64,000 nt of DNA from contig NC_087078.1 of NCBI RefSeq assembly GCF_026151205.1, forward strand, positions 8,262,675 to 8,326,674, in the 5' to 3' direction. Below the pieces are notes generated by a model. It was not told where the DNA came from. It searched no databases and was given only the letters and a program-made list of their open reading frames with translations. Below are positions 35,838-62,996 of this stretch, one piece after another. Position numbers and translations under genes: made by a program. Source of the DNA: Bolinopsis microptera. Taxonomy: Eukaryota; Ctenophora; Tentaculata; Lobata; Bolinopsidae. Within the stretch, counting starts at the first letter, position 1, and each line of letters opens with the position of its first letter.

Positions 35838-38628
<2,791 letters not shown>

Positions 38629-38870: not shown

Positions 38871-40145
38871 ATGCACCACTGCATCATGGTTTGTCTTCTC
38901 ATTTTAGGTTTATCCGTGGGTTTAGTAATCTCCCAAATTACACCTGAGTCTTGGATTGACTCGGATAGCACACCATCGAGCATTTCTCTAGACAGTGAAA
39001 AGGTTAAGGCTTTCGGCCTTCGCCCCTCGAACAACTTCAGATGTAAAAGAAACACTATAACACGGAAATGTAGATTAAAATGCACATGTATAAAAGGAAG
39101 AAGATATTGCTGCAGACAGAGAAAAGATTGGGATGCCCTGACTCATGATGAAAAGACAAGATTTCTCAATGCTGTGTACAATATTGGAACGGGAAGAGCT
39201 GGCTGGCGGCTGAGAAATAACTGGGTGAGACTGCTTTACATCCACGAACTGTACTGGGTGGAAGGAATCCATGACAGAGTACAGTTTTACCCTTGGCACA
39301 GGATATACTTGCTGAAGATTGAGAACCTCCTCAGGCAAGTAGATTGCCGACTGACTGTGCCGTATTGGGACTGGACCAAGAACGTTGCCCGGTGGTGGGA
39401 AAGCTCCATTTTCAACTGGAGATACTTTGGTTCCAATTTGAATTACAATGCCAGAACTGGTGAACAACAACTAACAACTGAAGATCAATGTCCAAGCAAT
39501 GGTTACTTTTCGCCACAATATGGCTATCAAGATCTGGAAGGTCAGTGCTTGGTAAGACAATTCACTTACAACGTTTTTCCTGCCAGTTATAAGAGAATTC
39601 AGAATATTCTGAGCTGGAAAAATGCCCTGCGATCTGAAGCCGACTTGAGGCATGAACATGGAATTCCTCATTACATAGTCGGTGGAGAAAAAACAGGCCT
39701 CTTCTTTACCGAAAGAGCCGCAGAAGATCCCTTATTCTGGATTCATCATTCTAACGTTGACTACCAATGGTATCAACGACAGACCAGATATTTGGAGACA
39801 ATATTCGAACCTTGGAAGGAAAGAGGGAACATTGGTCAATCACTGACAGCCTTCCCAGAAACCGTGGGACAAGCCTTGAACCCTTTTAAGCTTGGAAGAC
39901 TCAAAACATGTGTGGAGTATGTTGAATACGATGATAGATATGAAGACTGGTTGAGAGATAAAAGGACGCGAGCGAACAAGGTAGGGAGTTTGAGTTCTGG
40001 GACGCACGGGTACTCTACTGCTTCTAAAATGGAATGTATGAAAAGCCAACATAGTTTTCCAGCTCTGATTTTCACACTATTCAAGACATCACCCGCTGAA
40101 AAGAAAAATTTCTTGAGGAATAGAAACCAAGATGGAGATTGTTGA
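38871..40145 (+). CDS. Secreted tyrosinase (type 3 copper oxidase), 424 aa
   Basis: The single uninterrupted coding exon starts at an ATG lying exactly at a splice acceptor. A signal peptide is likely at residues 1-21 (hydrophobic VCLLILGLSVGLVI). A basic Cys-rich segment follows (C58, C67, C71, C73, C80, C81). The CuA site has H125, H134 and H143 in HELYWVEGIHDRVQFYPWHR with the family's H-x8-H spacing; VPYWDWTKN follows. The CuB site has H263 and H267 in HGIPH, then DPLFWIHHSNVDYQW with H292/H293. All six copper ligands are therefore present, so monophenol/diphenol oxidation with O2 is expected. Roles known for animal tyrosinases are pigment, cuticle or shell cross-linking, and adhesion or defence; which applies here is unknown. 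The coding part has no introns although the neighbours are intron-rich. Confidence 0.95.
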   Translation: MHHCIMVCLLILGLSVGLVISQITPESWIDSDSTPSSISLDSEKVKAFGLRPSNNFRCKRNTITRKCRLKCTCIKGRRYCCRQRKDWDALTHDEKTRFLNAVYNIGTGRAGWRLRNNWVRLLYIHELYWVEGIHDRVQFYPWHRIYLLKIENLLRQVDCRLTVPYWDWTKNVARWWESSIFNWRYFGSNLNYNARTGEQQLTTEDQCPSNGYFSPQYGYQDLEGQCLVRQFTYNVFPASYKRIQNILSWKNALRSEADLRHEHGIPHYIVGGEKTGLFFTERAAEDPLFWIHHSNVDYQWYQRQTRYLETIFEPWKERGNIGQSLTAFPETVGQALNPFKLGRLKTCVEYVEYDDRYEDWLRDKRTRANKVGSLSSGTHGYSTASKMECMKSQHSFPALIFTLFKTSPAEKKNFLRNRNQDGDC

Positions 40146-40430
40146 ACGTGAAGGAGACATTTGATATTGATTTAAAGACTGAAAGACTCTAAAAATTTTG
40201 TTGCTTATTTCAATTTTTATCAATTTTTAAGAAGCATATTAAATATTATTGCCTTTAAAATGCAAATTGTAAGGCTGAACTCGGGAAGAAAATAATTTTA
40301 AAAGTGGCATCAAATCATGAACATGATTATGATTTTATGTTAGAGCTGATTTACCCGATCATCATTAAAGATACCGTGCATTATTATCTTTAAATGAATA
40401 CACAAAATTTCAGGCAAAGTCAACTACAGA

Positions 40431-41515
40431 ATGTCAGCTTCAGAACCGCTGATTACAGACCCTAAAGTACCAGGAGATGAAAGGAAAATCTTCCTTAAAG
40501 AAGTGTGTCGAGATTGGAAGTTTCATAGGGATGACGTCTTGAAGGAGGTCTTCGAGATGGTCGACAAGGATGGAGACGAAAAACTAACTGGTAGGCTTAA
40601 CAGATAAAACGTTTAGGAGTCGGTTATTTTACTTAATTTAAAGAGTTGGCCATCTTGCTTAATAAAAGTTTGTTAAATTAGTTGTCTCACAGAATTTTAA
40701 ATTTCTGTACATGAAATTGCACACTGACACAGTAAAACTGATTAATACCGTGGCGTAATTTTTCAGAAAAAGAGATGGGACAGGCTCTAAGGTTTTTGGG
40801 TTTGAATCCAACAGAACCTCAAATCCGGGAGATGATTATTGAACAGAATACGCCGAAAGGAAAGCTCACATACAAACAGTTCGTTGATTCCCTCGAAACG
40901 GTAAAATTAAAAAATGATTTAATGCTATCTCTACCACACAATATGTATTTTCCGTGTTATATAAATCATAATATTTATACAAAATTCACGGTTTAATTGA
41001 CAGCCAGTATGAATATCCTATCAAAAGTCAGAAGTTTTGATATTTGATTGTATAATTTCAGGCAATTGGCTCCTGGAGCGTTTATGAAGACCTGATGTTT
41101 GCGTTTAGCGTGTTTGATCCCACTGAGACAGGCTACGCAAATAGAACCGTGCTGAAAGATCACCTGACCATGATAGGGGATCCACTAGACGAGGACGAGG
41201 CAGAGGAATGGCTCTCCCTTGTTCAGGTGAACGAAAAAAAGCTCCTATTAGAAACACTGTTTGATCTTTGTACAGATACTTGTAAAACGTTTTGGTGCAG
41301 TCTCGCCACAAAGATTGAATTTATCCATCTGCGCTGGCACCCATTAAATCAGTGTCTCAACTCTTATAATGCCATGCTGTTGCTAACGATCTTATATGTT
41401 GATATAGCAAACTTCCCAGTCGAACAGCAAAGGCGACATCAACTACCAGAGTCTGATAAAGCGAGTGCTGCACGATGAAGGCTGGCTGGAGGACCAGACT
41501 AAGACTGACAAGTGA
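40431..41515 (+). CDS. Calmodulin/essential-light-chain-like EF-hand protein, 184 aa
   Basis: Four coding exons with matched phases: 40431-40590, 40767-40900, 41062-41226, 41420-41515; the 5' acceptor is at 40413. The first EF-hand loop DKDGDEKLTEKE is canonical for Ca2+. The next segment MGQALRFLGLNPTEPQIREM is the classic calmodulin/troponin C linker pattern. Loops 2-4 (NTPKGKLTYKQF, DPTETGYANRTV, SNSKGDINYQSL) have lost key oxygen ligands. One working and three degenerate hands is the pattern of myosin essential light chains and divergent calmodulin-like proteins. The N-terminal extension is about 45 residues. AATAAA at 41591-41596 is a likely polyadenylation signal. It sits about 285 bp downstream of the tyrosinase stop on the same strand. 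Confidence 0.88.
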
Positions 41516-42414: not shown

Positions 42415-45400
42415 TTAATTTGTTTTATAGTATATCATGATATCATAAGTCTTATGCAAGGAAGGGGTGGTGTTCATATCACTGTCCTCAAGAATGCTCA
42501 GAGAAGATTCCCTCCAGTTTTCAGCATCGTAGCTGTAGCTTATACCAGATAACCTGTTCCCGTTAATTGTGATGTGGGACACTTTTCCGCGGAGTCCTCC
42601 GGCTGCTATCATGATTTGGTTCCAAGTCCTAGAAAGTGATACAGCTTCAAAACAATATATTGTGACCTTTATAATGCTTGAGTTTATTACCCTTAGTGAG
42701 GGTGCTCTTTACTTGGTTTTGTTCGCAATTGTTGTACAACTACAATGTTGCTATGGGTGCAGACTGCAGAGGCTAATTCTTTTGTTTTGATTATTCATGG
42801 GGAAATTTGGGAATTTTGAGTTCGACGCCCCTAACCTTCTAATGTCAACATGTCTTAGTAGGATCACGGTATGTTCAGTAATATAATTTACTAACCGTTC
42901 ATCTGATGAACTTTTTGCTAGAGCATCCCCAGTAGGTTGAATGGTGATTCTGACTCCTTCAGAAATGCTGTCCACACTTACAGCCACTTGAAGGAGCAAA
43001 TCATCTTGTTCTCTCAGATAGTATGTCTCGTAAATTGTTTCGGATGTTTCCGTCCCGCTTAGAAATATCGTTATTTCAACGTATTCTAGCCTGCAAAAAT
43101 TTTTTATTGCTTTTGATATCCTTTTTTTGATTTATTCTGTGCTACTACTCTGATTTACAAAGAATCACAGATAAGACTCGGGCATTAAGTTTTGGACTAT
43201 ATACTTATATACAGTTCACAAATTTTCCCCCTCGGGGTCATAATTTAACATACATAAATTACCACAAATTGCCACATATTTTGCATGGGCTGATTGCACT
43301 GCCATCCAATTACAGCGTCATATTATTCAAAATTGCGAAACACTAATTAGCCACCACCCTTTGGCCTTTTGAACTTGAGATTGCGCAAAATCATAATAGT
43401 TATTTCAAAATTAAGTGACAAAAAGGATCTCTCGTTGATGTTTGAGGTTCCACCCGAAATTTCATCGTAATACGTTTAATTTTGTTGAAACTGTTACTAA
43501 TACTTGAAAGTTGCATAAAATAACCATTTACTGTCAATGGCTTCTTGCAAAACGAGACAATTTGCTTTTGAATTTAATATTCTTTGACTGCTTAACCATG
43601 CTTTTAAATACCTCATCATATCATCGTAATTTTGAGTTCGACTTCGACGACCCTTAACCTTCTAATGTCATAACCATGTAGCACAGCATTATTGATCATA
43701 ATCAATTATAAATGTATATTCATTTTCTTACTTCACAGTCTCGATTGGGTTGCCACTCATCTTGTCAATATCAGAGAGTCTGCTTGTCATGAGGACACTC
43801 CCTCCTTTTATAAAATAGAGTTGTGAGGGGTCCTCGTTCGAGTCTATCGTTACTTTACCTGATGAAACAGGAGTATCGTTATATTTGAATTTAAGGTAGG
43901 TACAACTACAATATATTAGCTGCTTTTATGGGTGGAATGAGTACATGCGAGACCTGAACTGATGAACAGTCGTCATTTCTTGAAATATTTCTTGGTATTT
44001 ATTATATCTGACATGAATTTGAGTGGGTATATTCGACTGCGGATAGCGTTCATGCAGTTAAAAGTTTCGCCCAACGTAGCTTTGGCGCTTCACAAATTCC
44101 TCATAGCATAATCATGGCTGGCAACTTGCTTTAAACTGGCTTCAGGATCATGACTACGTAGCTATATAATACTCTTTATAATGAGACGGCACGTCACAAG
44201 CTAGTTAGCCAATATTCAATAATATTAAAATGTCAAATTTAATTGGGTTACTCAATGTTTAACTTTAAGACGTTAATTTATGTTCAATTTTTGATTTGAT
44301 TAAAGTTATATAATATTAATATTAACTTTATCTCATATTGCTTGTTAGAAAGGTGAGGCGAGGGAGGCATGCACCTCAATTCTAAATACTAGAGTTTTTG
44401 TGTGATTGATTCTGTGACGCTTGTCTTTAAGAGATCTTCGTAATAATCATTTAAATCCTGAGATCAGTTTTTAACTGAAATGAGACAGCTATAACGATTC
44501 AGCTGTTTACAGCGTTTTGTCACATCAGTTTAACCGTTCATAACATCGCTGATTAAAGGTTGTCGCACCTTTGAAAAGCAGAAATTAAAGATGAACGAAA
44601 GCAACCGATTACCTTTTTGTGGAACAACTCTCTGGTAACTGTTTTGGTTTCGTCTGTACCAGGTGTCATTCTGAGATGTCGGTAAATAAACGCTCGTCTC
44701 ACTCCCCAACAAGGCTCCCGCAGCCACGACAATTTTATCGCCCACCATGAACTGTAGTCCGTGATCTGATCCAGCTAATAGAACATCGCCAGGGAAGTTG
44801 AAGGACATCTCTCGGATCACGGGGAGTCCGTTGGTGAGACTGGATTTGTGGAGAGCAGTTAGCCATTCCGGGTAGAGATGGTATTTTGTCTTGATAAACT
44901 CCTTTATCTCCGCGAGTGCAGCGCTGTTCAGTTTTGACAGTGCAGATTCGTCGCCTGTGCGATAAGGGTTCATTTTGGGGATAAGAAAGCAAAAATGTAT
45001 ATTTCTTATCAAAGGTTGATCATTAATCATAGATTTTTATAAGTTAATATTGAATAAAGGTTTGGACAAAAGATATCATTTTCATTTTATTCATTCACCA
45101 AGCCCGATCTTTCATTATACTTGAATCTACTTAATTGTTTATGGTGTCGTCTGCACTCATTTTAATAACGTACGATTAGAAACCTTAATACAATTCCCAA
45201 GAAACCTTAAAATTCTTGAGTACCTGAGGTCAACAATAGGAATCCATTAAGCTTGTGGTAATTTAATATCATTTCATTGTCAGTCACACCAGGGGCTAGT
45301 CTTGTAGTCGCCAGTAGTCCTACATTTCCATACCAAATAATCATCGGTATCAACTGCCAGGGAAAGTGTAAACTTTTATAAAATTACAAGACTAATTTAA

Positions 45401-48400
45401 CGATTTAGTTTTGAAATGCTGTTAATTTAGTTGGTGTGTTGGCACCAGGTGGTACTGGTACATCACAAACAAGACAAATGATGTGGGGCAATGTGGGGTG
45501 CCTCCCTTACCTGGAGAAGGTCCTCTCTTGTGGCAATCTCGATATACTTTGCAGTATACTGTCCTGCTCCCAAGCTGACACTATCGCTGATCTGAATAAA
45601 ACTATCCCTATCCATCGACCGATATTGGTGCAAAATCTTAGCCTGCCTGCGATATTAAATACTTTTTACGTCCTCATTTTTTATAATGTGAGTATTTCAA
45701 ATGGAAATTTCTTGTGTACCATTAGAGTTCATAGAATAAACTTACAAGGTACCGTGTCGGTTGTGAATCCGTCTATGTACCGCATTCAGACCTTCGAGAT
45801 CTTTTCCGGTGTGACCTTTGCCGGTGTGGATGTAATCTAGGCAAATTGTACCTGGAACAAAATGAAATAAATCTAATATATTATTATGATCCACACATTA
45901 TTGTAGATCTAAACTTGCGTTACTACGCGAAATTTGTGCTAACAATTGCGGTAGGCCTTCTGAATACTAACATCGTAATCTTAATATTAATAATATTGTG
46001 TTAAGTTTGATGAATCTGGGAAAAAACAACTGTGTTAAATTTCACACTATACCAATTAAATGTAGTTGGATTAGGTATAGAGCTCTTTGATTAAATAAGC
46101 CAAAGAGTTCAATAACTCACGCTAATGATACCACAGAATATATTTAATTCATAAAATATCGCGCATCATCTTAGTTAACTTAACCGTTTTCGTTTTGTAT
46201 CATTAATTTATCTAAGCGGTATTGTTTTCTTTGAATATATTTGTTACACTTACAGAGCTGTGCATAGATATTCAAGGAGTATTTATGATTAAAAAAAGCG
46301 TTTGATCATATTGCATCGGAAGCTGTAAAATAAAAGTTCACCGGTAAGCCCGATAAAGACGTGATGTTTACAAAATAATTACTTGTGTTTAACTTACGAA
46401 CCATTGAAAAGAGGTTTATCTGAGAGGCTGAGAAAGGGTGAATTGTTGATAACGTTATCTGTGCAATTGAGATCCGCAAAGTTCAGAGGATAGTTGTGTC
46501 GTAAGTTGTGTCCTGCTCGGTTCGCAAGATACATACTGTCATTTCTGGAAAACATATTTTTTAGATTTTCTCGGGAGGTTGCTTATTGTTAACGCCACTC
46601 CTGAATCACATAATAAATTTGTCCAAAAACTAATTTAAAGCAAGCAAACTTAATGACATGTTTTAATATTTCATTGTTTATCTTGTATGATAATCCCTCT
46701 GAAAGTACTCACTGGTTATCATAATCTGTCATTGGGTGGGTGTAGTCGACGTAAGCACGAAAAGAACCAGGCATCTCCGAGTGGGATAAGGTCCCCATAA
46801 AGTAATCTCCCTCTGCTGTCCGGATCGGAGGGTCATTAGAATTTAATCCCAGCTGCACGAGCGGATCAACGTATCTGTAAATTGGTGCAAATTAGCACTT
46901 CATCAGTTAGCACTTCATCATGTGAAATACAAGTCGTCAGATATCGTTTAGATAGTAAGTAAACATGCGCGAACAATCGTGAATAGTTCAAGTTGACGTA
47001 CGTTATTACGGATTTAATTTGCTGCGAATCGTCGGGAACATCGATGAAATTATCGAGGACGAGCACATCAATTTTGAATTGGGTACTGTTTATGGCTTCG
47101 TTAGGATCGTGGTGAACTAGGGTGCCTAGACTCCACCAAGGGGTTCTGTTCGGAAGGCCTGCGGGTTAATTGGGTTGTTTGTTTGTTGGATAGCTGCTGA
47201 TTTAGAGTAAATAGAGTATAGGAATCATATCCACTTCTTCGAGTTAACGAATTAGTTCAGTAGATCTCGTTACCTCTACCTAAGCCCTTATTTCCTGATA
47301 AAATATAAGTCAGCGGAGCAAGTTTACCGAAAGTCTGAACGAACTGTGTTGCCACATCCTTCCTTGATGGTCCCACGAAAATTAACATTTCGAAATCCCC
47401 TCCCAACTGAGTGATATCAACAACTGTAGCACTGCCTTTTCTCGCACCGAAACTTATTTTCATCGGTGCAGGACTGCCCATAGCTACTCCGAACACTTGA
47501 GGGTTTGCTTTTCCGACTATTCCATAGAAGTACGGTAAGTTTGAGTTGTCTTCGCTATTCCATATCTGAATTAGGTTATTTTTAGATTTTGATATTGTTT
47601 GCTACAGGCAAAAGTTGAATAGTTGATGGGCTCGACATGTTTTATCAAATACAAAATTAATAAATTTATTCGTGATCACAGTTCTAGCAAGGACAATATA
47701 TTTCGTCAGATTCTTTAATTTGATAGCATCTCAATTCTAATCCGAAGTTCAACTGAAATGAAAAAGCATCATGCTCCTTTCAATCAACAAGAAATAGAGG
47801 ATTCTGGTTGTCTGAAATTTAGTATAATACCATTAAATTGTCGCCAGACGCCATCTTATTCCCGTTGGAAAAGATCTCAGCCGCTCCGAAGACGCCAGTG
47901 AATTGGACAAGGTTATCACTGACAATCAAAGGATGCTCTCGGGTATCCAGGATAACGTTGTCTTTTCCGTCTGAAAAGTGTTAATTTTGAAAAAAATTGT
48001 TACACAGAAAGTCGCTGAAAAGGTTGAATTGAGTCAAATTGTTTAGTTGAAATTGTTGCAGCTCTTTTCAGTGGGTTACGACAACTGTAATTAGATATCT
48101 GCCAAATGTAACTTTTCATCATTTTTCTAATAGTTTAGAATTGATTACAGTTATAATAGATATTATCGATCATTTATGTTTCGTTATTGTTCTAAGTGCA
48201 CGTTCCTTGTTGTTGGACGTTGGTAGATAAGGATCGAATGTAAGATATGAACAATATTAGAACACAGTCGCCATTAGAACTAATGGTGAAGTTTATTGTT
48301 ACACCCCCCCCCCCCCACCTCGCTCCTTCACTCTATCTATAAAGATGATAATGCTTGGGGTTGTAATCGATACCAGCTGTTCTAGTGCATACATAATATA

Positions 48401-51400
48401 AAGAGCCATGGGGTTAAGCGCCGTTATGTTTAGTAAGTTTGCACATGGTACCAACCTAACTTATATCACCGGGGCCTGGTGTGCTCTCCACCGATTATAT
48501 AGCGATTAAATAAGTAGTAGATGAAATGGAACATCCACCATGGTCCCTAAATACCAAAAGTCCTGCTTCAGTTACATCATTCCGTTCTGGGGTGTTACCG
48601 CAAGTGTTCTGGCACTTTCAATTACGGACGGTAATTCTAGATCAGCTCTCCTGGTGTGAGGCTCAATTTCAGAGAGTTGCTTCATCATAGTGGGATCACA
48701 TCTAAATTGTTACGAGCTGTTCCGCGGATATTTCATTAATCCAGGATTTGTTTATTGTTATTACTGTTGATTGTCTCAGTTACGATGATGGCGCAAGTAA
48801 TGAAACATCATCGTCATATCAAGCAAACTGCAGCAGTGGTGAGGATATGTGCATTGTGCCGCCCCATTTTAATCTCGATGGCACATATTCACAAAGTAAT
48901 TGCCTTGTTCGGTACAATTTAATATCGTCTGGACTGATGGTGCCTGACCAGTACCAGGTGGTTCTCCTCTCTCTCTCACCCTCTCATTGTAGTTACACAA
49001 CAAGCTCCTCTCTCACCCTCTCATTGTAGTTACACAACAAGCTCACACAGCCTCATATCATGGTGCTAAACGTGATCAACTTGTTAATCTCCCAACTAGA
49101 TCAACGTGCTCATCACCCAACTAGATCAACTTGTTAATCTCCAGAACAGTCTTTCACTTTTCAGTTTTCAGTGTTTAAATTAGCAGATGCCTGCGTAAGT
49201 AATGGCATGCTTTATTACTCGGACACAAGACCATTTCTTTGCCACGTGCCAGTGATTAACCAATCAGCTACAGCGATCAGTAATCATACCTGGCTAATTT
49301 AAAGTAGCTGTCACGTTCTGACACGAAATTGCCCAGGAATTAATTCCGTGTCAAAACAAAGTGGCTTCGCCTTGAAAACTGCAGTTTATCCAGGGATCTC
49401 ACGCTTTCTGGGTATTTTTGGGTATTTCCGACAGTCGACTTCTTTTAAGAATGTTATTAAGTATTGAACCATTTTCTCGTCATGGAACCATTATCTGGCA
49501 TCGTCCATAATTTATATTATTCATAATTCATATTATTATGCAGTATTTATCATGGGTTTTCATCAGCTTATATTTTGCAATACCTAATCGCAATAATACA
49601 CAATGATGTTGTAAGTTACCCACGTAGACTTAGATTCGTGTTGTGCTACTCAGCGGAAGATTTTGCTGACCGCACAATATTCTCATCGGCTCATATATCA
49701 TAGGCTACTCGGATTGGATAATATGATGGATGCTATGACGAATTTCTGAAGAGTAACATTCTCAACTGCAAAGTTTCCACCCAGTGGTCTTATCTCTGTG
49801 GGGTGTTGGCAGTGATCCAATTTCTCAGTCACTCCCGTGCTTAGAGCGGATCCCAGGTCACTGATCAGGTCGCATTTATATTGTTAGCTCACTCTTCTCA
49901 ATATAGTTCGTAACATATACATATTATTTTTCATTGTACATCTAAGCATAATGTAGTAAATTTAAAGCGTACCCCTAAGAGCCAGTTGTTTTACAATTTT
50001 GTTCGTCTAATTAAATTTTTTTAAAAGTTAGTTCGTGTATATTTATCTATATAAATATTAGATAGCGAAATTTGGGTCAGATCAAAGGACAAATTGGCAA
50101 GGCACGGATTACCTGAGGACCTCATGCTCCGTTTTACACACTGTTCCGCAAGATTAGGCAAATAGATAGGCTGGCAAGGAACAGAGATCATTTTTAATCG
50201 AAGACGCTTTGTTATCATTTTGTTTGTTATGTTGATTTATTTACAGGGTGTTCACGAAACATTGGTACGGTTTTAAACTTGTGTAAATTAGTTTATGAAA
50301 GAGCAACCAGCTATATTTAGCTATTATTTTCGTTGTAAATCGGTAACAATTTTGTTACAGCAGTCCAGATATCGAATATTTAACATAGCTCTCGAAATTT
50401 CGTATTCATTTAGCTGCAAGGCTCTTTAAATATGCTATTGCCAAAGCCTACTTTGAGAATGATCTCAGCTCATTTCCCACCAAAAGGTACCTTGTTTACG
50501 AGTTGTTGTTTGTTGTTTTTGTTGTTGTTCTACTTGTAAATTCGTGTCTTTCTTTTTGGAACATTTCATCTATGCTGACACAAATGCACATGGTCTGTGA
50601 AGGCCCGTGGCTGCTCGAACGGTTTATCAGCTGGAACTTGTTATTCACATTTATAATTCAAAAACAATTTAGCTTTGTCAACACCATCTTAAAACCTTGG
50701 GAAATGTTTCAATGTCAATTGTAACTATTTCCTGACGCGGTAATATTCCCAATAATCACTCAGCTCGACAGTCTTTACCTGCTAATGCTATGAGTATTAC
50801 ATTCTCGCTAGGCAGTATTTATCTTTTAATGTTCAAATCCAAAGTTCTGTATAGTCTGTTACTTGACAGTTGAAACTCTTTGTAGTGGAAATGGGGAGAG
50901 TGGTTTCGAAATGCTTTTAAATCCAATTTCTAGAATTTTGCCATGTAATGTGTTTGAGCGCCAGTTTTACAAGAGTGGTTTTAAATGGCAAAGGGACCCT
51001 AATTATCAGCTTATTGTTTAACTGCTTCACTATTTGCACACTTCACACTCTATTATACATCCTGCCTTCTATTGTTTATCTACTTGAGGTATCATTGTTC
51101 GGGGCTGAGTTTATCACCCAACCAGTTAGTTGTTTAGTAGTTTAGTTGCCAGTTTGGTTGTCGTATGTACTCGTACTTATACTAGAGGTTCGATTCTAAG
51201 TCGGTTACTGGTTCAGAATTTAATAGAAACATTTACAGTAGTATTGATTTTAATTATTCGGAAAACTTTTATTCATAATCGAATTAATCCACATTCAACA
51301 TTAATTCAAGCAAATGCTAGTTTAGGTATTTGTTTTCATATCACTAACTTTTTTTATCTAAACGTATTTTTAAGTATGCCAATTCAGTATTTTCACTGAT

Positions 51401-54400
51401 TTTTCATTCGGACGCTGAAGCCGCTTTAAGTCAGTAAATGGAATCTGCAGTATTATAAACATTTAAGAGCTCTCTCACCATTACTAATCCTACTGACGAT
51501 GATGTAGAAGGGGTCTCCCTGTCCCGCTGTAGTTAGCTTAAAATTACTATTCGTCAGATCCCTCTTGCTGGGTGGTCCAGTCTCTTCGTCCGAGTCGTCC
51601 GAGTGGCTTGTTGATACCTGAGATAGTGTGATAGCTTCCATTTATAGGCATATGTAGTTTTCGATTAAGAGTTGCGTTTGATATTTTAAACAACCAATCG
51701 AATTTAAAAATGGATGTTATGGTAAAAACAGTTGCCTCAGCCGGCCTAATCAGAAACCCATGTCTGACCCGGTTATACTTACGAGCGTATTACAAGACAT
51801 TTAACTATACCATACAACCGCAAATGACTTGCAACTCTGTGCGGGAGGCCCCCCAGAATCATGATAATCAGATCCAACTTTGAGGAATATCATATCCGAT
51901 AGTAATGCCACCTTGAGGAGGCCTTTGTACTATATTAATCGGACTCTTAGGTTAAGATAGCTTATCTCTCCAATAACATGGTTGTTTACAGAGATATGTT
52001 GTTGAGATATCTAGTTTTAATCAGAGTATTACTAGTTCTCAGCCTCTCCTAAACCCTCACTCTCCTAAACTCATCCCTCTCAATCTAATCATTTGCAAAC
52101 TCATTCATTGCACGCACAGTTATCAGGCAGTTATCGTTTACTTTCTTTGTAAGGTATATAACACTGTCTTTCTTGCTGTCTTAATTTCTTGTGAATTTCT
52201 GGTATTTATGTTGCTTTGTTAGCCGTACCAATTATTGATAGACACGACACTAGTTGGCCTGATTGGGAAGACATGCTTGTGTGCACGCTATCGGGTAGTA
52301 TTTTGCTCTCATGCTAGCTGTGAGACAGCTATAAAGTTTTCCGGAAATTATCATAAATATTTATGGGAAAGCTGCGCGCTCTATAACCAATCTCCAAATT
52401 GTCAAATCTCAAACTGGGCCCGCTTACTTTAATTTGCTTCCAAGTAATGCCGTTTTTATAGTGCTTATATACGACGGATTGTATCCCTTTTCCAGGATTA
52501 TTTATCCAGGTCTAATTAATGTGGGAGAGGAGACAGGAGCTACAAAAGAGCAGACAAGCACCAGCATAATAAGTAATCATCTAAAAAGGTAGTTCCCAGA
52601 ATCTCAACATTTACAGATTACTGACCTTTATTCGTAAAGTGCTCCCGCCTTCGTTGGTTATCAGCACGTAAAGAGTCTCCGGAAGAATTGCTAAGGGGTT
52701 ACTCTTCACTTCTTCCTCGTCTCCACTTGTCTCCTCGTCTCCACCTGTCTCTTCGTCTCCACTTGTTGTATCAAGAGTAGAGTTCAAATAGTCTGCTTCA
52801 CTGATGGGGATTCAGAATTCTAGTAATCATGAATTTTGGGACGAATAATTACAGTTATTCAGTGACGGTTTAGTCATCATTTATAATCTTTAGATACAGA
52901 ATCAAAGATAAGCTTGACAGTAGCAAACACTGTGAGAGAATGGCCACGTTGTCAGTTAATCATTTTGTGAGCAGTCGACTCTGGCCAGATGAATCAAACC
53001 GAACTCAATAATCATGATAATGACCGGAATCTCACTTTGAAATTGGCACAGTTCATTGTTTCCAGAGTTTATTAATATTACAGTTCTGCTATCCACCCTA
53101 GCCTCTCTCTGATCTTCGGAAACAAGCGATGCTTGTTTGGCCGAAGTATTAGTAAGGCTACTCCTTAATCTTATTCAATATTTTCAAAACTGTATGTTTT
53201 GGAAATATTTACGTTGGCCTTATTTACATTGGCCTTACGTGGAACCTCCGGTTACAAGTCTTTAAAACTTCAATCATAGTGTTAGCAATTTTAATTTTCT
53301 GTAGTTTCAAATAATCTGTCCTTTGGCAGTATAAAACTACCCATAAATTTATAGTGGTCTATAAACAGTTGTTATGAACAATGTTGACCGCCAGGCTTCT
53401 CGGATGCAACTTAAATAAATTACCAATTATTTTAACCAACTTACGAAGAAACAGCATCTCTTTTATGCAGCGATGATTTATCAGCCAGTTTAAGAGTTAT
53501 CCGCACTGTTGTGCTCGTCGTGTTCTTGCTCTCTACCGAGTACGAACTCTTCTTAGGATAGACGCACCTGAAACCGTGGTTCTATCAAGGAAATTTGGAA
53601 CAACCACGTACAATCCCCGAACAACCCCGGACCCATCAGTTATTGATATTGCATAGGTTTCAACATAGCAAGGGTGTTGCTATTGAGGTTTAATAAAAGT
53701 ATGAAGCAGCAGGGACAAAAGGAAATCGCGGCATGTACGGAATCGCGATTTTTCCCATTATTTGCGAAAAATTGTATGTATAGTTTAATATACCGCGAAA
53801 TGTAATTCGCGGTATCGCGATTTTTGGCCAAAATAACCGCGAAATCCTTTTGTCCCTGTGAAGCAGGGTGTGTGGTTATTGGCTAAGATGGCAAGTACGT
53901 ACGGTACGTACCTTTAACTTAGCTGTACGGTACGTACTTAATAAAGTAGGCTGAAAGGTACAAATCCAGTGGATAGCAATGGACAAGCGTAGATTAAGGT
54001 TGCGACTTGAGCTAGCTGAAAAGCTGGTGTTCGTATACTGCAACAAAAGGATGAAGCTTTGAGTTTAACGATAATTACAAGTAGTAGTAGTGTAGTACCG
54101 GTTAATTTGTGTGTTTATTTTCGACTTCTATAGTTCTGTCTCAAAAATTATGATGATAATACTAATCAAAAATTGCAAGTAATTCACTGAAGTTGATTCT
54201 AAAAATTTGAAAAAAAAATTGTACCTTACATTGCCTGTACCGTACGTACCTTTAAAAGTAGCTGTACCGTACGTACTTAAAGCCCTGTACCGTACGTACT
54301 TTCCATCTAAGGTTATTGGTTGAATAAAAAAGAACATAAAAGGTCCTGTCCCTCAATATTACCCGCATATGATGTCAGAAGTAAAAGGAGCATGTAACTA

Positions 54401-57400
54401 AAACTACAGTCCTCAGTAGTTTGTTCTCTAAATTACTGCCGCCTATTAATGTTTGAGACCTGTCTCTTTTGTCCCAGCTGACATGGGAACCTTTGTTCAG
54501 GATAGTAAGTTTACAGTATAAATATTAACTCAGTATAGACATTTTCAGTGTCAGAGTCGTGGTCGTTAGTACATTAAATATTTCATATTTGACGTATATA
54601 AGCGCCCGAGCATTTAGCGGTTTAGTACTTTATAGTAAGTGTTGGAATCGAATATTGATCAGCGCAGAATGATCAGCATGTAATGAATATGATTGATGAC
54701 TTGCATCACATTTTATGTGTCCTGAGCACTTGTCATTAGCACTTTTCATAAGTTCTTGTTGCAATATGAAGGTGAGTACCTACAAAATAATAAATAAAAG
54801 AGATTATAAATCTCCCCTTTGTTTCCCAAATAACAACTAAATTGAAAATAGAGGATATTCCTTTTTCAAATTATTAAGTTAAGGTTGCATTGATTGTAGG
54901 AGTTATAAGTAGAAATAATACCTTTTAGAAGTGGAGCCATCAGAATTTTCCGTACTCCTAAACTCGCATCCTGACACTTCACACATTCCCTGGGTAAGTA
55001 CTTAGTACTAAGCTGATGCTTGTAAAAATAAGGAGACAGTAAACTCTAATTTACAAAATTTCTTTTGATTTGAGCATCCATGACCAATATTTGAAAGGTT
55101 ATTTAAATTTACGACCGTTAGTATTGATGGTGTTGATACCTTGGACGGGTTCAGTCCTGCCAAAGTGCAGGTTATCATGTCAGCTGTATCAGGGAGTGGT
55201 TCTGACTCTGTTGGGTCCTCGTCATTTACCTGTTAAGTTTTGATTTTTAAGAGTATGTCCATTATACCCCAGTTTAATTCAAAGTTCAGATTTTGGGTTG
55301 GGATCAGGTCAGTTTTAAAACTTTAAATTAGTGATTGGAAAGAGTAAGAATAATGTTCGGACATTTTTGAGTTTGGTTGGGGATCAAACGTCATGAGATC
55401 TTAAACAGAGTATTCTAGGTTGGAATTAATTTTCGCCGTCTTCATCATTGTATAATAGGGTCGCGTGTATTGATTAACACTTAACCTTATGTACCGTAGA
55501 ATGGGGGAACTTCGCCATGTTTTACAGTTATTTCATGTTATTTAGAAAATACGACAGGAGTACTTGAAAAAGTTTATAGCTCATATGAACAGGATTGGTA
55601 AAGCAAATGTTTTCGTATGAACCACATCAGCCAGGCATAAATAGTCAGCTAGATTGGTGCCACTGAAATCAGGGCGAAGTTACCCTGCAATATGGGGTAA
55701 CTTCGCCATTCTGAAACTATACCATATTCGGTGCTAAGCACCATACCACTCGAAACTCAATTATATTTCCTTGATATACCTGCCAATTTTACTTATCTAG
55801 CTCTAGCCTGCGTGTTACAATGGGCAATTTGGTCGCCGGGGTAACATCGCCATGCTGCGGGTAACATCGCCGGGATGAAGTAGAAATGTAGTCGAACTTC
55901 GCCAATACACGTGCGTGACTTTGCCAGCCGCGCGCGAATTTCGCGCCAAACTTCGCCGAACAGATGGGATCAGAAGAGGGTAACTTCGCCACACACAAAT
56001 TTGAAAACTTTATAATATCAGTTGTGTGCATCATGGCTAACTAAATTTGCCCTTAAATGAACAGGACATATGCTAATGATGTCACACAGAATTAATTAAG
56101 GATATAATTGTAAAATATGGGAAATATGCAAGCAGGAAATTTTAACCACTTTATAGCAATATTTCATGTTGCCTGAGTTTAATTGACATAGTAAACGTTT
56201 ATTTTTGAATAGGAATACCTTCATAACCATTTGTTCAACACAATACTATACAAAAACTCGATCTCCTAACAATTCAAAACAGTAAAATGATTATTTGAAA
56301 AATAGTGGCGAAGTTCCCCGACACGGCGATTTTACCCCAATCTACGGTATGTTGTTGATGAGGTAGACTCAGCATAAAAGATAAACCGTTCATGAACAGA
56401 ACAGTTAATTATATTAATTTATTCAGTTCATGAACGGTTTATCTTTTATACTGAGTCTACCTCATCAAGCTCAACAATCTACATAAGTTGCACACTCTCA
56501 CTTCCTTAGATTACGACTATTCCATGTTGTGCATTATTTACTATGTATTTATAAAATGTGTATAATAGCCACTCTAAAGCACAGACGTATATAGCTTTTT
56601 TATTGTTTGTACCACTCCAATTTGACACACACCGTCTCAGATTATAAGTTCACAACCTACTCTAGTCGCTCAAGGTTGCAAATATCAGACTGTCGATATC
56701 CGAGACTAATGCGAGTCGATCATTCGCTGAGTTTTGTCGCGACCACATCGTTTAACTCTTTAACCCCATGCATCATGACCAACGCTTTTTAAATTATAGT
56801 CATGCAGTCATAGAACTTTGAGAAGGGGGATGATTATATTGAGTTGATCTAATATCAAGTTTTCAGGAGTTGATGATGATTCTTATCGATTCGAAATATC
56901 TCATTTTCAATGACTGCCATAGTCAGTATTGATTGATTTTTGAACTATCCCACAAATAACTTTAGTAATATAACCGTAGTGTTTGCAAAGTAATAGCGAG
57001 TACATACTGTACCTTGAAATTGAAATTACTTTTCCGAAGTCGACTCACGTACATGATGATGACGTCATCACTTAGTCACGTGACCTGATGAGTAGGTCAC
57101 AAGATGATCACATGCCTCATCAGAGATACGAGGTACAGAAGGTAACACAACATTTCCCTTTCTTCAAATTTAACTACACCTATTTTCAACAGGGGTGTTG
57201 TTAAGTTTTGTTACATTTCATAAGTGATAAGTTCAGCCCGGTCCAGAGGGCGTGTTCGAAACTTATTTATTTTGTAAACTCTTTTCATTATACTTATTAA
57301 ACTTATTCTTAAACCTAAAGTTATTTTAACAAGCTCATAATTATCACCAAAAATTACACTTATTAATAGTTTAAAGTCTTTGATGACTTGCGATCACAAT

Positions 57401-60400
57401 GAACATAATATAAATTGTGCAATAGCCAATAATATCACATACTATTCGAACTGTCGTAGACTAATCCTTATACGATCTGAGCGATGTTTTTAATGCGGCA
57501 TCACACAGGAGAGGAAGAAGTCGATTAAAATCTTATAATAGTACATATTTTGTTTGGGCGTTCTTTTTACTAATATTAGTCTTATATAATTCAAGAAATC
57601 GATCTACGAACTTTAGCATTTAATTTTATTATAACTTTGAGCTTTAATTAGGCCGGCTCTAATCCATAAAAACTTCCATAAAAACAAAGATTGTAGCCCA
57701 ATTTTGTCAGCTACTCGATTCTCAACATGCTGTTAGCATGACAAAGCTAGGTAAAATGAGCCAACCATTTTCTTACAGTTACGTTGGCTCATGACAGATT
57801 TGTCATTTGATTATTTTAAGAAGCTTTTCTTTCATCATTGACCAAGTAAAAGCAGTGATTACAAGAATTTATTGCAAATCGGCCCATGATCTCTCGTAAG
57901 ATTAGCCTTAAAATATGTTAGCTTTAAATATTACGAGCCGGTAGAGGAATGGCGCAGCAGCTGCAGTAATCTACCAGGCCCCGGTCGGCGAGTGAAATTT
58001 ATCAAAAGAAGAAGTTCACAGCTCACTACGCATGATGAGCACATTGCCACGAGGCCGTTTATCTTGCCAACTTCCAGCAAAACGGTTGTGATTATGGAGA
58101 TAATATCCACTACTGAACGCTGGTTCAGGCCATCAAGTCTCAACTTTAACTATGATTAATTTTACCTTGCAGTTATAGAGGTATTAGACTAATAATGGTG
58201 ATAAATCTCAGGGGTGATAAATCTCAGGGGCAAAGAAATAAATTATCCTAATGATGTGCACAGTTTATATAAAGTTAAATATAATATATTTAATATAATA
58301 TATTTAATATAATATATTTATATAATATATATATATGGTTACATTACTTTACTTAAATATAAAGTTTAATGACTCTTATCGTTTTATAAATTCCGCGCAC
58401 GCGGCATGAGTCCTAATTCTATAATAGTCAAGGGATCAATGGTTTGGAATACTGATTGTTAGAATATTCCGTTATCACAGATTGTACTTTGCGAAACAAA
58501 ATCTTTACCGAACCAACTCTATAATTCCCTATGGAAAACGTTTCGAAAAGTTTCTTTTCGTCATCATAGAATCAGAACTAAGGTAATGAAATTGCCAAAA
58601 CTTCTACTCGCTCAATATTATTTACTAAATAATAAATATATATTATACAATAACCATAGTGAAGATAGCTTACTAAGCACCATTTTCTTTACTTAACAAA
58701 CTAAGCACCATTTTCTTTCCTTAACACAACCATTTCTGAATCCTCAAAATTCCTTTGAGCTGCTAAGATAATTTCTATTATGTGTGTCAACGTCATATTT
58801 AATTACAATTATTTGAGGACTGAAACGGTAATTTACTACGGACAATACAATATGTCCTCTGTCAATAATCAACAGTCACTGATAATTTGTTGTAGCTGAA
58901 CAATTTAAGCAATTACCATCAGTTACAAATTCGTTTCTCCCTTGTTTTGTCAACATTGTTGTCTAGTAGGGCACCGTTTAAACTTTAAAACAACATTATT
59001 CAACCTCGTCATCTATCTATTTAACAGAACCCCTCGATTCTCACCAGGGTGGTGATTATCAGGGTTGTGAAAATAGGGATCATACTTATGTGATCTAGCT
59101 AGCTTTGTAGTCACACTGTAGTGCCAGTAATTAAAGGCCGCAAAGTAGAAACGGGACCTAAATGAGTGAATAATGATATATCGTTTAAACATTCAATATT
59201 TTCAGTTCATTGCATTTCATTACAATATTTATATATTTTTGTTGCAACATATGCCAGCATCCACAGGGGGCTTTCATGGAAACATTATCAATCACAAAGT
59301 TACGATGCGATTTTGCAATTACGATTTTGCTACACGAGCCTTGAAAATCCTTTTTGCGTTTAATTACTTAGGGCAGAAATTTTATTATATCGACTTATGA
59401 TCTGGTGACTTTTCTAGAGACCATACCTTACGAGACATATTTAAAAGGTACGAAATGCGGTGGCTTTCGGAAAAAAATCCCATATTTACGTTCCCAAATC
59501 ATTTAGTTCACCGGAATTATGTCGAATAGTATGGCTTTGATTGAATTCTCTGCCTCACCAGAGCACTTAAAAGCAATTTAATTTTAAAGGATTTCTTCGA
59601 TCAAATTAATCAAACAGGCAACGCATGTCTATGTACTAAGTGCACGTGTACAGACCTTTAATGTGCGTTGTCTTCATTTGTCACGGAGTTTTCGAGTCCT
59701 AATTACTCACATTGATGCCGGGTTTCTTGACCACTAGCAGCACCACACACAGTACTATTACAAGTAGGATCACCACTGCTGAGATTGCTCCTCCTATTAT
59801 GAAAACTCTTCGTCTTCTCTGTCGTTGTATTTCCGCCGCGTCTTGTGGCTGAAGAGTAGATTTTTTAATTTGGGTAAATGCATCTTCGTTTTTAATGATA
59901 CTGTTATGTCAATGATGATTATTAACATTTTATTCACTAGTCTAGGTTACCATCCATGTTTTTTCGCTATTTTTGGCATCGAAGATCCTAATTTCTCGCA
60001 TACTCATAGATGGCGAGAACGGCAATGACCGCCACTACGATTATATTTATATAATCGTTTATTTATATAATCGTATGTTTATATAATCGTATATTTATAT
60101 AATCGTAAAAAAGTAGCTCCTTCTAACTGGTAAAGTGTTTCGCAACAAGATCCCCTCAACTAACCGACCTACTTACGCACAATATAATCGTCCGACCACT
60201 CTAAAATATAAACACCTGTACACACGCGAGAGCGGCCTGTTTAATGGACTGCTCAGCTGCACTAAGCCGGTTATCTCCTCAACCACTTTGACAATAACTT
60301 TAAGGCTGATGTTGCATGCGGTCGATACGACTATTGTTGATGGTCCATGCGTGTCGGGGATGTTGTGCAGGAGTGTGATATTAAAGATTTAAAGCTGTTA

Positions 60401-61112
60401 AATGGTCATTTGCTAAAGTGACAAGTTGTGTCCCTAGTCTGGGTAGCCTAGCAGTTTAGATAGCTTTTTATTGGCATCACTGATGTTATGTGTGTAAATC
60501 ATTTATTGCATTTAAATGGCATTTTATCTGCGCTTTATGCTCGTCTGGGTTAATAACAGATTATAGACTTATTTCTGCACTGCAATGATTAAAGGCCACC
60601 TATGATCTATAAATTACACTAAATTACAGTATCATACAGTGATGCTGCATCACTGATGCAATATTTAAACGTCTGATCTTTAGCTGCTAATCCTTTGTCA
60701 GTGATAAATAAACTTTCTGCGCTGCCCAATATGTGGCATTATTATTACTGTTATTTTTATGGAGCAAACTTGCCACCTAGGTCAAGGATCATTATATGTA
60801 TACTACTGGATGTTTAGGCAATGTGCTAGGATATGGGACATACCCAACCACTCCCTCTATCCTGATTCCTGAAGTGGTGTTAACTAATTAACTGGCATAC
60901 TCTTCTTCATTAATTGGCGTTATGCTATTTTTGGTATTTCCTAGTTTCCACGGGGCCTTATCTTTTATCCTCTCAGTGTTATTACATATGTGTACCTGAT
61001 CAGAGGTGGGTAGAACAACGTAATCCTTCCCTTTGTTTGGGAACCTGACTCTATCAGACAGTTTATCTTCTCCTGTCTCCTCCTCCTGCTCCTCTTCTTT
61101 TAGACGTTCCAT
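42415..61112 (-). CDS. GH31-family type II membrane protein, probable pseudoenzyme, 982 aa
   Basis: Nineteen exons form one continuous frame: 61112-60996, 59848-59711, 55229-55140, 54989-54922, 53567-53445, 52800-52626, 51617-51479, 47970-47831, 47565-47280, 47158-47002, 46874-46713, 46544-46402, 45851-45781, 45642-45511, 45353-45224, 44954-44613, 43858-43732, 43090-42896, 42628-42415. The acidic cytoplasmic tail is followed by RQRRRR and one membrane helix at residues 54-79 with no signal peptide, so it is type II. A short Cys segment comes next. GH31 landmarks then follow in order: the N-terminal sandwich, PYFYGIVGKANPQVFGVAMG, GGDFEMLIFVGPS, NRTPWWSLG, YVDPLVQLG, TICLDY, LEGLNA, LTNGLPVIREMSFNFPGD, TSVYLP...WYRR and YFIKGGSVLM. 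Where active enzymes have WxDMNE this protein has NDSMYLA (residues 533-539), and the acid/base GDN region reads YIEIA (636-640). Hydrolysis is therefore unlikely, and a binding or receptor role is inferred. The relatives are sucrase-isomaltase/maltase types. The donor of exon 12 (GTTCGT) is weak. Confidence 0.88.
48780..48957 (+). other. Possible exon of unknown gene within GH31 intron 7
   Basis: An open segment bounded by GATTGTCTCAG upstream and CAG/GTGGTT downstream encodes a Cys- and Ser-containing stretch (SYDDGASNETSSSYQANCSS, EDMCIVPPHF). The composition is protein-like and it lies opposite the host gene. No neighbouring exons were identified, so it may be chance or a fragment. Confidence 0.25.
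48965..49142 (+). repeat. Short tandem duplications
   Basis: A unit of about 38 bp containing CACCCTCTCATTGTAGTTAC is present twice. It is followed by three approximately 25-bp copies of AACTAGATCAACTTGTTAAT-like sequence. All are intronic. Confidence 0.8.
53710..53858. mobile_element. hAT-like MITE, 149 bp, with 8-bp target duplication
   Basis: The ends are CAGGGACAAAAGGA and its exact inverse. Both are flanked by TGAAGCAG (53702-53709 and 53859-53866), a perfect 8-bp duplication. An 8-bp duplication with CAGGG ends is the hAT superfamily signature. The interior is rich in TCGCG/CGCGA words in inverted order, so the whole element can fold. Located in GH31 intron 4. Confidence 0.92.
53883..54310. 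mobile_element. Inverted-repeat element with GTACGTAC ends, 9-bp target duplication
   Basis: Left end CTAAGATGGCAAGTACGTAC, and right end the near-inverse (GTACGTACTTTCCATCTAA). It is flanked by GGTTATTGG at 53874-53882 and 54311-54319. A 9-bp duplication suggests a Mutator-like origin. The motif GTACGGTACGTAC recurs twice at the left and three times, inverted, at the right. It begins only 8 bp after the target duplication of the hAT-like MITE. Confidence 0.85.
55494..56347. mobile_element. TA-flanked element with repeated AACTTCGCC motif
   Basis: Ends CCGTAGAATGGGG and CCCCAATCTACGG are inverted repeats with one mismatch. Both abut TA, so a Tc1/mariner-type duplication is likely. GGGTAACTTCGCC or a close variant (ACATCGCC, AACTTCGCC, GGCGAAGTT) occurs at least eight times inside and at both termini. 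No transposase is seen. Located in GH31 intron 2. Confidence 0.8.
56355..56468. repeat. Long hairpin, about 45-bp arms
   Basis: The left arm TTGATGAGGTAGACTCAGCA continues into AAAAGATAAACCGTTCATGA. The right arm is its inverse with a single difference, around an AT-rich loop of about 25 bp. It starts eight bases after the element ending at 56347. Confidence 0.88.
57057..57084. promoter_or_regulatory. Adjacent CRE-type and E-box palindromes
   Basis: TGATGACGTCATCA (57057-57070) contains a perfect cAMP-response-element core. GTCACGTGAC (57075-57084) is a perfect E-box palindrome. Four bases separate them, within GH31 intron 2. Binding is inferred from motif identity only. Confidence 0.4.
58270..58335. 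repeat. TA-rich palindromic repeat
   Basis: Iterated AATATATTTAAT/ATATAT units in GH31 intron 2. Confidence 0.85.
60037..60108. repeat. About 17-bp minisatellite TTTATATAATCGTA
   Basis: Five imperfect copies of the unit TATTTATATAATCGT in GH31 intron 1. Confidence 0.88.
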
Positions 61113-61255: not shown

Positions 61256-62996
61256 TCCAGGGGTGTAGGAAGCGGGGGGGCAGGGGGGGCCATCGCCCCC
61301 CCATGAAATCTGGGCAAGTGGCCAAAAAGGGCCAACTTTTTAATTTAGGTTTCTAAACATTTTTGGAAAAACAATTTTCCCGAAAATTTTCCAAGTCAAA
61401 AAATGTTTAACTCAAAAATTTTCTAAGTCAAAAATTTTCTAAGTTTTCTTGGAAACTACTTTTGTTCATGTTTCATGCTACCCTGATCATTATGAGTCAA
61501 ACATATTTTTTTCGGTTTTCGAAGTTCGATATACGAATTTGGACTCGATGGTTCCCCTTTGTAATGCGATCTCGGAAGGCAGGCCTCCCCTTCGCAATAC
61601 GAGCTCATAAGCGGGAGCTCTGCTTTCAGAGGTACGTATCGAGAATGACTCGGACCGAAAATTTTCTAAGTCAAAAATTTTTAAAGTTTTCTTGGAAACT
61701 ACTTTTGTTCATGTTTCATGCTACCCTGATCATTATGAGCCAACAATATTTTTTTCGGTTTTCGAGGTTCGATATACGAATTTGGACTCGAGGGTTCCCC
61801 TTTGTAATGGGATCTCGGAAGGCTGGCCTCCCCTTCGCAATACGAGATCGGAAGCGGGAGCTCTGCTTTCAGAGGTACGTATCGAGAATGACTCGGACCG
61901 AAAATTTTCTAAGTCAAAAATTTTTAAAGTTTTCTTGGAAACTACTTTTGTTCATGTTTCATGCTACCCTGATCATTATGAGCCAACAATATTTTTTTCG
62001 GTTTTCGAGGTTCGATATACGAATTTGGACTCGAGGGTTCCCCTTTGTAATGGGATCTCGGAAGGCTGGCCTCCCCTTCGCAATACGAGATCGGAAGCGG
62101 GAGCTCTGCTTTCAGAGGTACGTATCGAGAATGACTCGGACCGAAAATTTTCTAAGTCAAAAATTTTTAAAGTTTTCTTGGAAACTACTTTTGTTCATGT
62201 TTCATGCTACCCTGATCATTATGAGCCAACAATATTTTTTTCGGTTTTCGAGGTTCGATATACGAATTTGGACTCGAGGGTTCCCCTTTGTAATGGGATC
62301 TCGGAAGGCTGGCCTCCCCTTCGCAATACGAGATCGGAAGCGGGAGCTCTGCTTTCAGAGGTACGTATCGAGAATGACTCGGACCGAAAATTTTCTAAGT
62401 CAAAAATTTTTAAAGTTTTCTTGGAAACTACTTTTGTTCATGTTTCATGCTACCCTGATCATTATGAGCCAACAATATTTTTTTCGGTTTTCGAGGTTCG
62501 ATATACGAATTTGGACTCGAGGGTTCCCCTTTGTAATGGGATCTCGGAAGGCTGGCCTCCCCTTCGCAATACGATATCGGAAGCGGGAGCTAAGCTTTCA
62601 GAGGTACGTTTCGAGAATGACTTGGACCGAAAATTTTCGAAGTCAAAAATTTTCAAAGTTTTCTTGGAAACTACTTTTGTTGCTATACTACCCTGATCAT
62701 TCTGAGCCGAAAATATTTTTTTCGGTTTTTTTGAAGTACCTACATTTGGAAGGTTGTGGAAGTGACACTGATTGGTTTCATATACTAATTATAGAAAACG
62801 TGATATTTGGTCCTCAGATTTAAAGGAAAATGCGCAATATGACGTGGAGAACTGAAAAAAATCGCGATTTGTCGTGAGGCCCCCGAAATTAAGGCTTTGG
62901 TGCGAAGCGCCAAAAAATTTATGCTGTGGCGCGAAGCGCCAAAAAATATTTAGAATTTGGCCCCCTCATGAAGAAAATCATTCCTACACCCCTGGA
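61256..62996. mobile_element. Inverted-repeat element (hAT-like ends) containing a 243-bp tandem array
   Basis: The outer ends TCCAGGGGTGTAGGAA and TTCCTACACCCCTGGA are perfect 16-bp inverted repeats. The flanks carry AGAGAG on both sides, but a clean 8-bp duplication is not certain. Next to the ends lie GGGGGGGC/GGCCCCC-type sequences and two GGCGCGAAGCGCC-like words on the right. The interior is a tandem array (61441-62730). No transposase is recognised. It lies about 140 bp upstream of the predicted GH31 start codon. Confidence 0.75.
61441..62730 (+). repeat. 243-bp tandem repeat, five full units
   Basis: Units begin at 61441, 61684, 61927, 62170 and 62413 with AAGTTTTCTTGGAAACTAC, and a partial sixth begins at 62656. 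Copies 2-4 are almost identical; the outer copies are more diverged. Because 243 is divisible by three and no indels occur, two frames on the plus strand stay open (453 and 334 codons), both with an 81-residue period. Simultaneous openness in two frames argues against coding selection on either. Confidence 0.95.

Follow-up and report, generated by a model that had tools for sequence, protein, structure and literature searches.

The window analyzed here, a 64,000-nucleotide stretch of the genome of the ctenophore Bolinopsis microptera (contig NC_087078.1, positions 8,262,675 to 8,326,674), carries on its minus strand a 19-exon gene (61112..42415) that very probably encodes a pseudoenzyme of the GH31 family with an intact reading frame. 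The structure of the gene, its homology, the loss of residues from the active-site pocket, a predicted type II topology and the existence of siblings in the genome that are partly or fully degraded, all of them read from sequence, argue for this view. As a complete explanation we favor, with modest confidence, a membrane-anchored GH31 pseudoenzyme that would act as a noncatalytic scaffold or partner of another protein. An initial annotation of the same DNA had proposed a surface pseudoenzyme, and the intact frame, the type II character of the sequence and the missing pocket bear out that description, with the secretory pathway as a further possible location.

An in-frame, multiexon gene of GH31 type

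The 19 exons join into a single frame of 995 amino acids with one terminal stop and no internal stop codons. They were picked from a three-frame reading of the minus strand, with GT-AG borders and matching phases required and the GH31 pattern used as a guide by eye. All 18 introns are GT-AG, which is no test of the model because they were selected as such. As a cross-check, a custom protein-to-genome spliced aligner was run with C7a, the closest paralogue in the genome, as the query. Exon 5, which is absent from an earlier 954-amino acid version of the model, was located through this alignment. The chosen frame has the highest codon score of the three in all 19 exons, with a range of −0.1 to 17.8 and the lowest values at exon 5 (−0.1) and exon 15 (1.4); the score was trained on 1488 codons from C7a, a second paralogue (C2) and, from the window itself, the tyrosinase and potassium-channel frames, against the introns of the gene. 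GC content by codon position is close to that of the training genes. At the stop-triplet rate of the introns, 995 open codons would arise with a chance of ~10^-33, a figure that serves as a guide and not as a test, since it disregards the selection of exons for openness. The multiexon, in-frame, minus-strand gene of GH31 type described in the initial annotation is thus confirmed. Its interval, 44530..61112, is right at the start codon (ATG at 61112) and too short at the other end, where exons 17 to 19 (43858..42415) add beta domains and the stop. The earlier 19-exon model came without exon coordinates, which makes an exon-by-exon comparison with the present one impossible. An open reading frame at 49883..49698 was considered as an exon and dropped, as neither frame nor homology requires it.

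A profile built from the three catalytic-looking paralogues in the genome finds the window gene with an E value of 6.3e-29, compared with 0.0046 for the best of 200 shuffles. Because the exons were picked in the knowledge of GH31, the unbiased figures are those of the whole-genome searches, in which the window gene as query recovers C7a at 4.4e-11 and C7a as query recovers the exon 16 stretch at 4.7e-9, the latter independently of any exon choice. PF21365, the GH31 C-terminal domain, is matched at 33.9 bits (cut-off 24.4) over profile positions 1-87 of 87; when exons 5 and 17-19 are left out the score is 26.7 bits, and in a single frame it is 29.8 bits, with positions 1-59 or 1-60 of 87 covered. 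Among solved structures, GH31 glucosidases came nearest to the model in its earlier versions, and the 954-amino acid version, without exon 5, had the GH31 alpha-glucosidase 3w37 as its best match in the Protein Data Bank (1.9e-7). The in-frame, multiexon, GH31-type gene is not a chance artifact, and these matches indicate that it is a member of the GH31 superfamily by descent.

Replacement of the catalytic residues and the sugar pocket

In the human GAA structure, the residues that contact the sugar are D404, D518, R600, D616, H674, W376, I441, W516, M519, W613 and F649 (PMC5653652). The corresponding columns were read from nine alignments, obtained by running three MAFFT modes on two, four and six sequences. 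In all nine, the nucleophile column holds an arginine and the acid/base column (D616) a gap, and the loss of both catalytic aspartates claimed in the initial annotation is thereby upheld. In all nine, too, M519 is replaced by H, R600 by D, W613 by Y and H674 by D, and each of W516, F649, W376 and I441 gives way to another residue or a gap. The individual motif assignments fared unevenly: WxDMNE, previously equated with NDSMYLA, aligns instead to NLRHNY within GHNLRHNYPLNF; YIEIA is the right stretch for GDN, with the acid/base position itself falling into the gap; and TTRLAPG is the right stretch for the GADICGF-type motif, its aspartate column being L, T or R depending on the alignment.

Loss looks denser in the pocket than elsewhere. 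Of the residues that do not vary among the three catalytic-looking paralogues, 0 of 10 at published positions of the pocket are kept versus 52 of 140 others (Fisher 0.012); the other two MAFFT modes give 0.0077 and 0.0091. D404 is a gap in all of these alignments, and the value weakens to 0.076 or 0.054 once D404 counts as kept. These P values are indicative only, because alignment columns are not independent. WxDxNE, GDN-type and GxD(I/V)xG motifs were sought in the six frames of 42.0-61.5 kb and in every frame of the spliced model, a scan that cannot see a motif interrupted by some intron that the exon model does not use, and the sole motif-like match was an off-frame FTDISE at 44686. A splice variant restoring WxDMNE or GDN, which the initial annotation had named as one of two observations that would overturn it, was found neither in the single frames nor in the spliced model. 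Of the other, stop codons pointing to a pseudogene, the genomic model shows no internal instance. Together, the pocket columns and the motif scan support the view that hydrolysis by the GH31 mechanism would be impossible for this protein.

Domain architecture of the predicted protein

The predicted protein contains, in order, a type II anchor, a trefoil-like segment with four cysteines, a GH31 N-domain with an acidic insert, the barrel and C-terminal beta domains. Exon 1 (60996..61112, minus strand, as are all exons; amino acids 1-39), whose frame has a higher codon score than either alternative, supplies the start ATG and an acidic, putatively cytosolic N terminus. Exon 2 (59711..59848; 40-85) encodes RQRRRR followed by a hydrophobic helix, as the type II anchor of the initial annotation required. 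The basic side of a membrane helix is cytosolic under the positive-inside rule and, because the acidic N terminus and RQRRRR precede the helix, a type II topology is predicted, with the ectodomain lumenal or extracellular. Ten N-glycosylation sequons are present, and there are seven cysteines, at residues 73 (within the helix), 106, 118, 123, 139, 559 and 583; none lies at residues 80-105, the 26 residues that lead from the membrane helix to the trefoil segment. This segment is encoded by exon 3 (55140..55229; 86-115), with a linker and the first of the four cysteines in CTLAGLNPSK, exon 4 (54922..54989; 116-137), with the trefoil-like CEVSGC, and exon 5 (53445..53567; 138-178), with the trefoil end RCVYP...SYSVES and a weak codon score; the spliced aligner agrees at the 3' border of exon 4 and the 5' border of exon 5. 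The four cysteines and CVYP align with their counterparts in the C7a trefoil. The segment has no Pfam match, either by itself (in a query whose first residue was mistyped) or within the whole protein, compared with 4.4e-7 to PF00088 for C7a.

The N-terminal beta domain begins in exon 6 (52626..52800; 179-237), which was not recovered by the aligner and which carries an acidic low-complexity insert. It continues through exon 7 (51479..51617; 238-283; 3' border recovered), with a second, short acidic stretch, and exon 8 (47831..47970; 284-330; 3' border). The acidic stretch GDEETGGDEETSGDEEE and the later DDSDEETG thus lie past the trefoil segment and inside the N-terminal beta domain, and the long acidic juxtamembrane stalk of the initial annotation has to be given up. 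Exon 9 (47280..47565; 331-425; 5' border) holds the end of the N-domain and the start of the barrel. In the barrel, VLVLDNFID stands in place of WxDIDYMD in exon 10 (47002..47158; 426-477; 5' border), and YVDP is kept and VWPG replaced in exon 11 (46713..46874; 478-531), which the aligner missed. For the next six exons the aligner recovers both borders. Exon 12 (46402..46544; 532-579) covers the nucleophile region, with GIWLDMNEPANF changed to GHNLRHNYPLNF, and has the donor GTTCGT; exon 13 (45746..45851; 580-614) keeps C583 and HN of the barrel; exon 14 (45511..45646; 615-660) covers the acid/base region, with SRST..HWLGDN changed to SDSV..KYI--; exon 15 (45224..45353; 661-703) spans the region where GADIGG is replaced by TTRLAPG; exon 16 (44613..44954; 704-817) encodes the end of the barrel, followed by the greater part of the PF21365 C-terminal domain; and exon 17 (43732..43858; 818-859) encodes the proximal C-terminal beta domain with LYFIKGGS. 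Exon 18 (42896..43090; 860-924; 3' border; donor GTTAGT) and exon 19 (42415..42628; 925-995; stop TAA), for which the aligner gave different borders, are read as the distal beta domain from the alignment to C7a. Cysteines 559 and 583 fall in stretches that hold a cysteine pair in C7a (GCENNTINN and TLCLD), and the corresponding pair in GAA forms a disulfide.

GH31 paralogues in the genome

Searches of the 264.65-Mb assembly with PF01055, PF21365 and protein queries found five other GH31 genes, three with catalytic motifs (C7a, C2 and C12) and two degraded (C6a and C6b). Further GH31 genes may exist, because the searches go exon by exon and score the best candidates only; the PF21365 genome search itself overlooked the window gene. 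All paralogue models were built automatically, are verified in the motif regions only and, for C2 and C12, open with short pieces that are doubtful. C7a (L030:3495-6706, minus strand; C7 about 759.5-762.7 kb) lies 7.5 Mb from the window gene on the same contig and is the closest of the paralogues to it, at 23.4% identity (177/758). Its catalytic motifs are intact (WLDMNE, GDN and GADIGG), and it has type II anchor and trefoil exons: by eye, the anchor exon is of the same kind as in the window gene, the first trefoil exon (CTLAGDNASK) matches, and both introns flanking that exon share position and phase. Past the trefoil, C7a is nearly intronless. One apparent frame break in its assembled DNA, near L030:4256-4319, is read across by the searches, and because this break could reflect either faulty assembly or a recent lesion we term the gene only catalytic-looking. 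The motifs of C2 are WIDMNE, HWTGDI and GADICGF, and those of C12, which we take to be glucosidase-II-like, are WNDMNE, GDN and GADVGG.

The two degraded genes differ in how much is lost. C6a (L035+L033 with L036, C6:2432893-2447927, plus strand; 22 spliced-alignment pieces) is a candidate half-lost pseudoenzyme, with the nucleophile kept (FIDENEP), KEN for GDN, GANICG for GADICG, and the DID and VWPG motifs lost. In C6b (L034, C6:17664492 to about 17659447, minus strand) the lost motifs read HLHQNTP and GPNI, SRST is replaced by SDGT, and the acid/base column holds an aspartate, in a loop whose length differs. C6b has a trefoil-like start and, like the window gene, an acidic low-complexity insert in its N-domain. 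Upstream stretches were scanned for anchors: a likely type II anchor precedes C6b, and the stretches covered for C6a and C2 gave no anchor. In a tree of the six genes, none of the three inner branches is starred, and because of this lack of supported inner branches one loss and several are indistinguishable; the branch of the window gene in the same unsupported tree is long (2.48-2.73 changes per column). A genome search with C6b gave one weak match outside these GH31 genes, on C11 (E 0.59). A plant GH31 fragment scanned against prokaryote contigs gave 14 pattern matches, none of them confirmed, and a search of plasmids, which gave hits to 202 prokaryote records, plays no part in the conclusions. 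A search for COX1 gave no match.

Other features of the window

Just upstream of the window gene, a 470-amino acid open frame at 61411-62823 (plus strand) is a tandem array of 243-base units, with 5.4 copies, 97% matches and a period divisible by three, and gives no Pfam match above cut-off. On the same strand are a tyrosinase-domain open frame of 426 amino acids at 38865-40145 (PF00264, 3.1e-24), pieces of a voltage-gated potassium-channel-like gene at 33816-35117, two of which match PF00520 and PF07885 above cut-off, and EF-hand-like pieces at 40398-41250 (EVFEMVDKDGDEKLTG), with PF13499 matched only below cut-off for 41056-41478. Two large arrays at 2863-6262 are built of 69-, 252- and 330-base units with the palindrome AAGCGCTTATAAGCGCTT, their consensus units being oppositely oriented, and an (AG)n run of 588 bases with 98% matches occupies 35838-36425. 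No hits came from scanning the window for tRNAs or, at gathering scores, for Rfam families.

Discussion

The explanation that we favor starts from a trefoil-bearing, membrane-anchored alpha-glucosidase like C7a, from which the window gene would have descended with loss of catalysis and of the −1 sugar subsite while the frame and recognizable GH31 landmarks were kept. Its product, provided that it is expressed and folds, would be a membrane glycoprotein of type II within the GH31 superfamily. Its anchored ectodomain would bind a second protein, either in the secretory pathway or on the surface, and the catalytic-looking GH31 paralogues are among the possible candidates. The noncatalytic scaffold or partner role, taken by itself, is advanced tentatively. 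The old pocket is unlikely to act as a lectin site because the sugar contacts and the catalytic acids are both gone, and for this reason protein binding is favored; the chief alternative is glycan binding via the trefoil segment.

A number of observations weigh against this explanation. No feature found in the analysis identifies a partner, and nothing was found that favors any one of the receptor, chaperone and transporter roles suggested in the initial annotation. The barrel model PF01055 has no match up to an E of 1 (full model) or 10 (776-amino acid version) and does match both degraded genes, C6a at 206.1 bits and C6b at 75.2 bits. The exon model is recovered only in part by the spliced aligner, which returned 18 stretches: both borders match for 6 of 19 exons (12-17) and one border for 7 more, exons 6 and 11 are missed, and five further stretches set by the aligner are rejected. 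The donors of exons 12 and 18 are weak, the codon score of exon 5 is negative, and intron positions other than the two that flank the first trefoil exon are shared with the paralogues only at chance (2/15, chance mean 2.0). Of the residues invariant in the three catalytic-looking paralogues, 53 of 150 are kept, which fits relaxed constraint. Finally, some acidic residues of the pocket may persist, since D443, which we take to lie in the GAA pocket, stays D in all nine alignments and D404 is D in five of nine and a gap in four. These two aspartates are also what speaks for a protein that is still an enzyme, with relocated or unusual catalytic machinery. We regard this as very improbable, given the arginine at the nucleophile, the gap at the acid/base and the replacement of R600, W613, M519 and H674 throughout the alignments.

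The low retention of invariant residues, together with the long branch in a tree without supported inner branches, could be read as the mark of a gene without constraint that is little or not expressed and is becoming a pseudogene, and a sandfly GH31 protein without catalytic residues is indeed weakly expressed (PMC8063059). Such decay is nevertheless quite unlikely, as 995 codons are free of stops and frame breaks and the chosen frame is the best in every exon; moreover, many radical changes in the pocket would take time, during which neutral drift should have produced stops. A lectin-like surface receptor, which would bind glucans through the trefoil segment or another surface, is unlikely as well, if a little less so. 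The trefoil of GAA carries a secondary carbohydrate site that binds a second acarbose (PMC5653652), and the four cysteines of the segment match those of C7a, but the segment lacks the Pfam match that C7a gives and the barrel pocket has lost nearly all of its sugar contacts. The initial annotation had drawn an analogy to rBAT and 4F2hc, and a heavy-chain-like partner of a membrane transporter would fit the type II sequence, the ten sequons and the dead glucosidase-like ectodomain. However, the protein belongs to GH31 and not GH13, and because the neck cysteine that would form the disulfide is missing, a transporter heavy chain is less likely and in our judgment improbable. The analogy stands as a conceptual likeness, in that rBAT and 4F2hc are type II proteins with glucosidase-like ectodomains without proven enzyme activity, 4F2hc without and rBAT with its catalytic residues (PMC8537225). 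It does not extend to a close correspondence, as these are GH13 proteins joined by a neck disulfide to an SLC7 transporter (PMC8537225).

GH31 proteins without catalytic residues are already known, from dipterans: the 'lysosomal' LysAglu of the sandfly and mosquitoes and NET37 clade IV, with loss of activity suggested for the LysAglu type and no function given in the accessible text (PMC8063059). These proteins and the putative GH31 pseudoenzyme described here are alike in the absence of catalytic residues; in addition, mosquito LysAglu has trefoil and NtCtMGAM domains, and the NET37 proteins have an N-terminal membrane helix (PMC8063059). What appears to set the window protein apart is the replacement of nearly the whole −1 pocket, the absence of a PF01055 match, the in-domain acidic insert and the two further degraded siblings in its genome. 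The order of trefoil, N-terminal beta domain, barrel, and proximal and distal beta domains is that of GAA, sucrase-isomaltase and maltase-glucoamylase (PMC5653652), and C7a has this GAA-type layout plus an anchor, as does the window protein if its trefoil-like segment is counted as a trefoil. In contrast to those enzymes, the window protein is a single GH31 unit without catalytic aspartates and with at most 1 of the 11 GAA sugar contacts. MYORG (NET37) shares the type II anchor and lumenal GH31 domain and is an active alpha-galactosidase, an example of a type II GH31 protein with activity in animals (PMC9491548). The distal C-terminal domain is absent from MYORG (PMC9491548), whereas the window protein has this domain and a trefoil-like segment. 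Among the matches listed from the open literature, with subscription journals mostly uncovered, the sandfly survey (PMC8063059) was the only paper on GH31 pseudoenzymes. As far as the literature was searched, the depth of the loss, the in-domain acidic insert and the presence of paralogues at differing stages are new.

It is conceivable, if doubtful, that beside three catalytic-looking genes the genome holds a family of three or more GH31 pseudoenzymes whose active sites are lost to differing degrees, a family in which a digestive-type ectodomain would have given rise to membrane recognition or regulatory proteins. In such a family, an arrangement no less speculative, C6a would be partly lost and C6b and the window gene fully or nearly so, the window gene being the furthest diverged, and the anchor would be found in the window gene and C6b. 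With catalytic-looking, half-lost and fully lost GH31 genes side by side in one genome, both the order of loss and the reason for keeping the fold would be directly testable.

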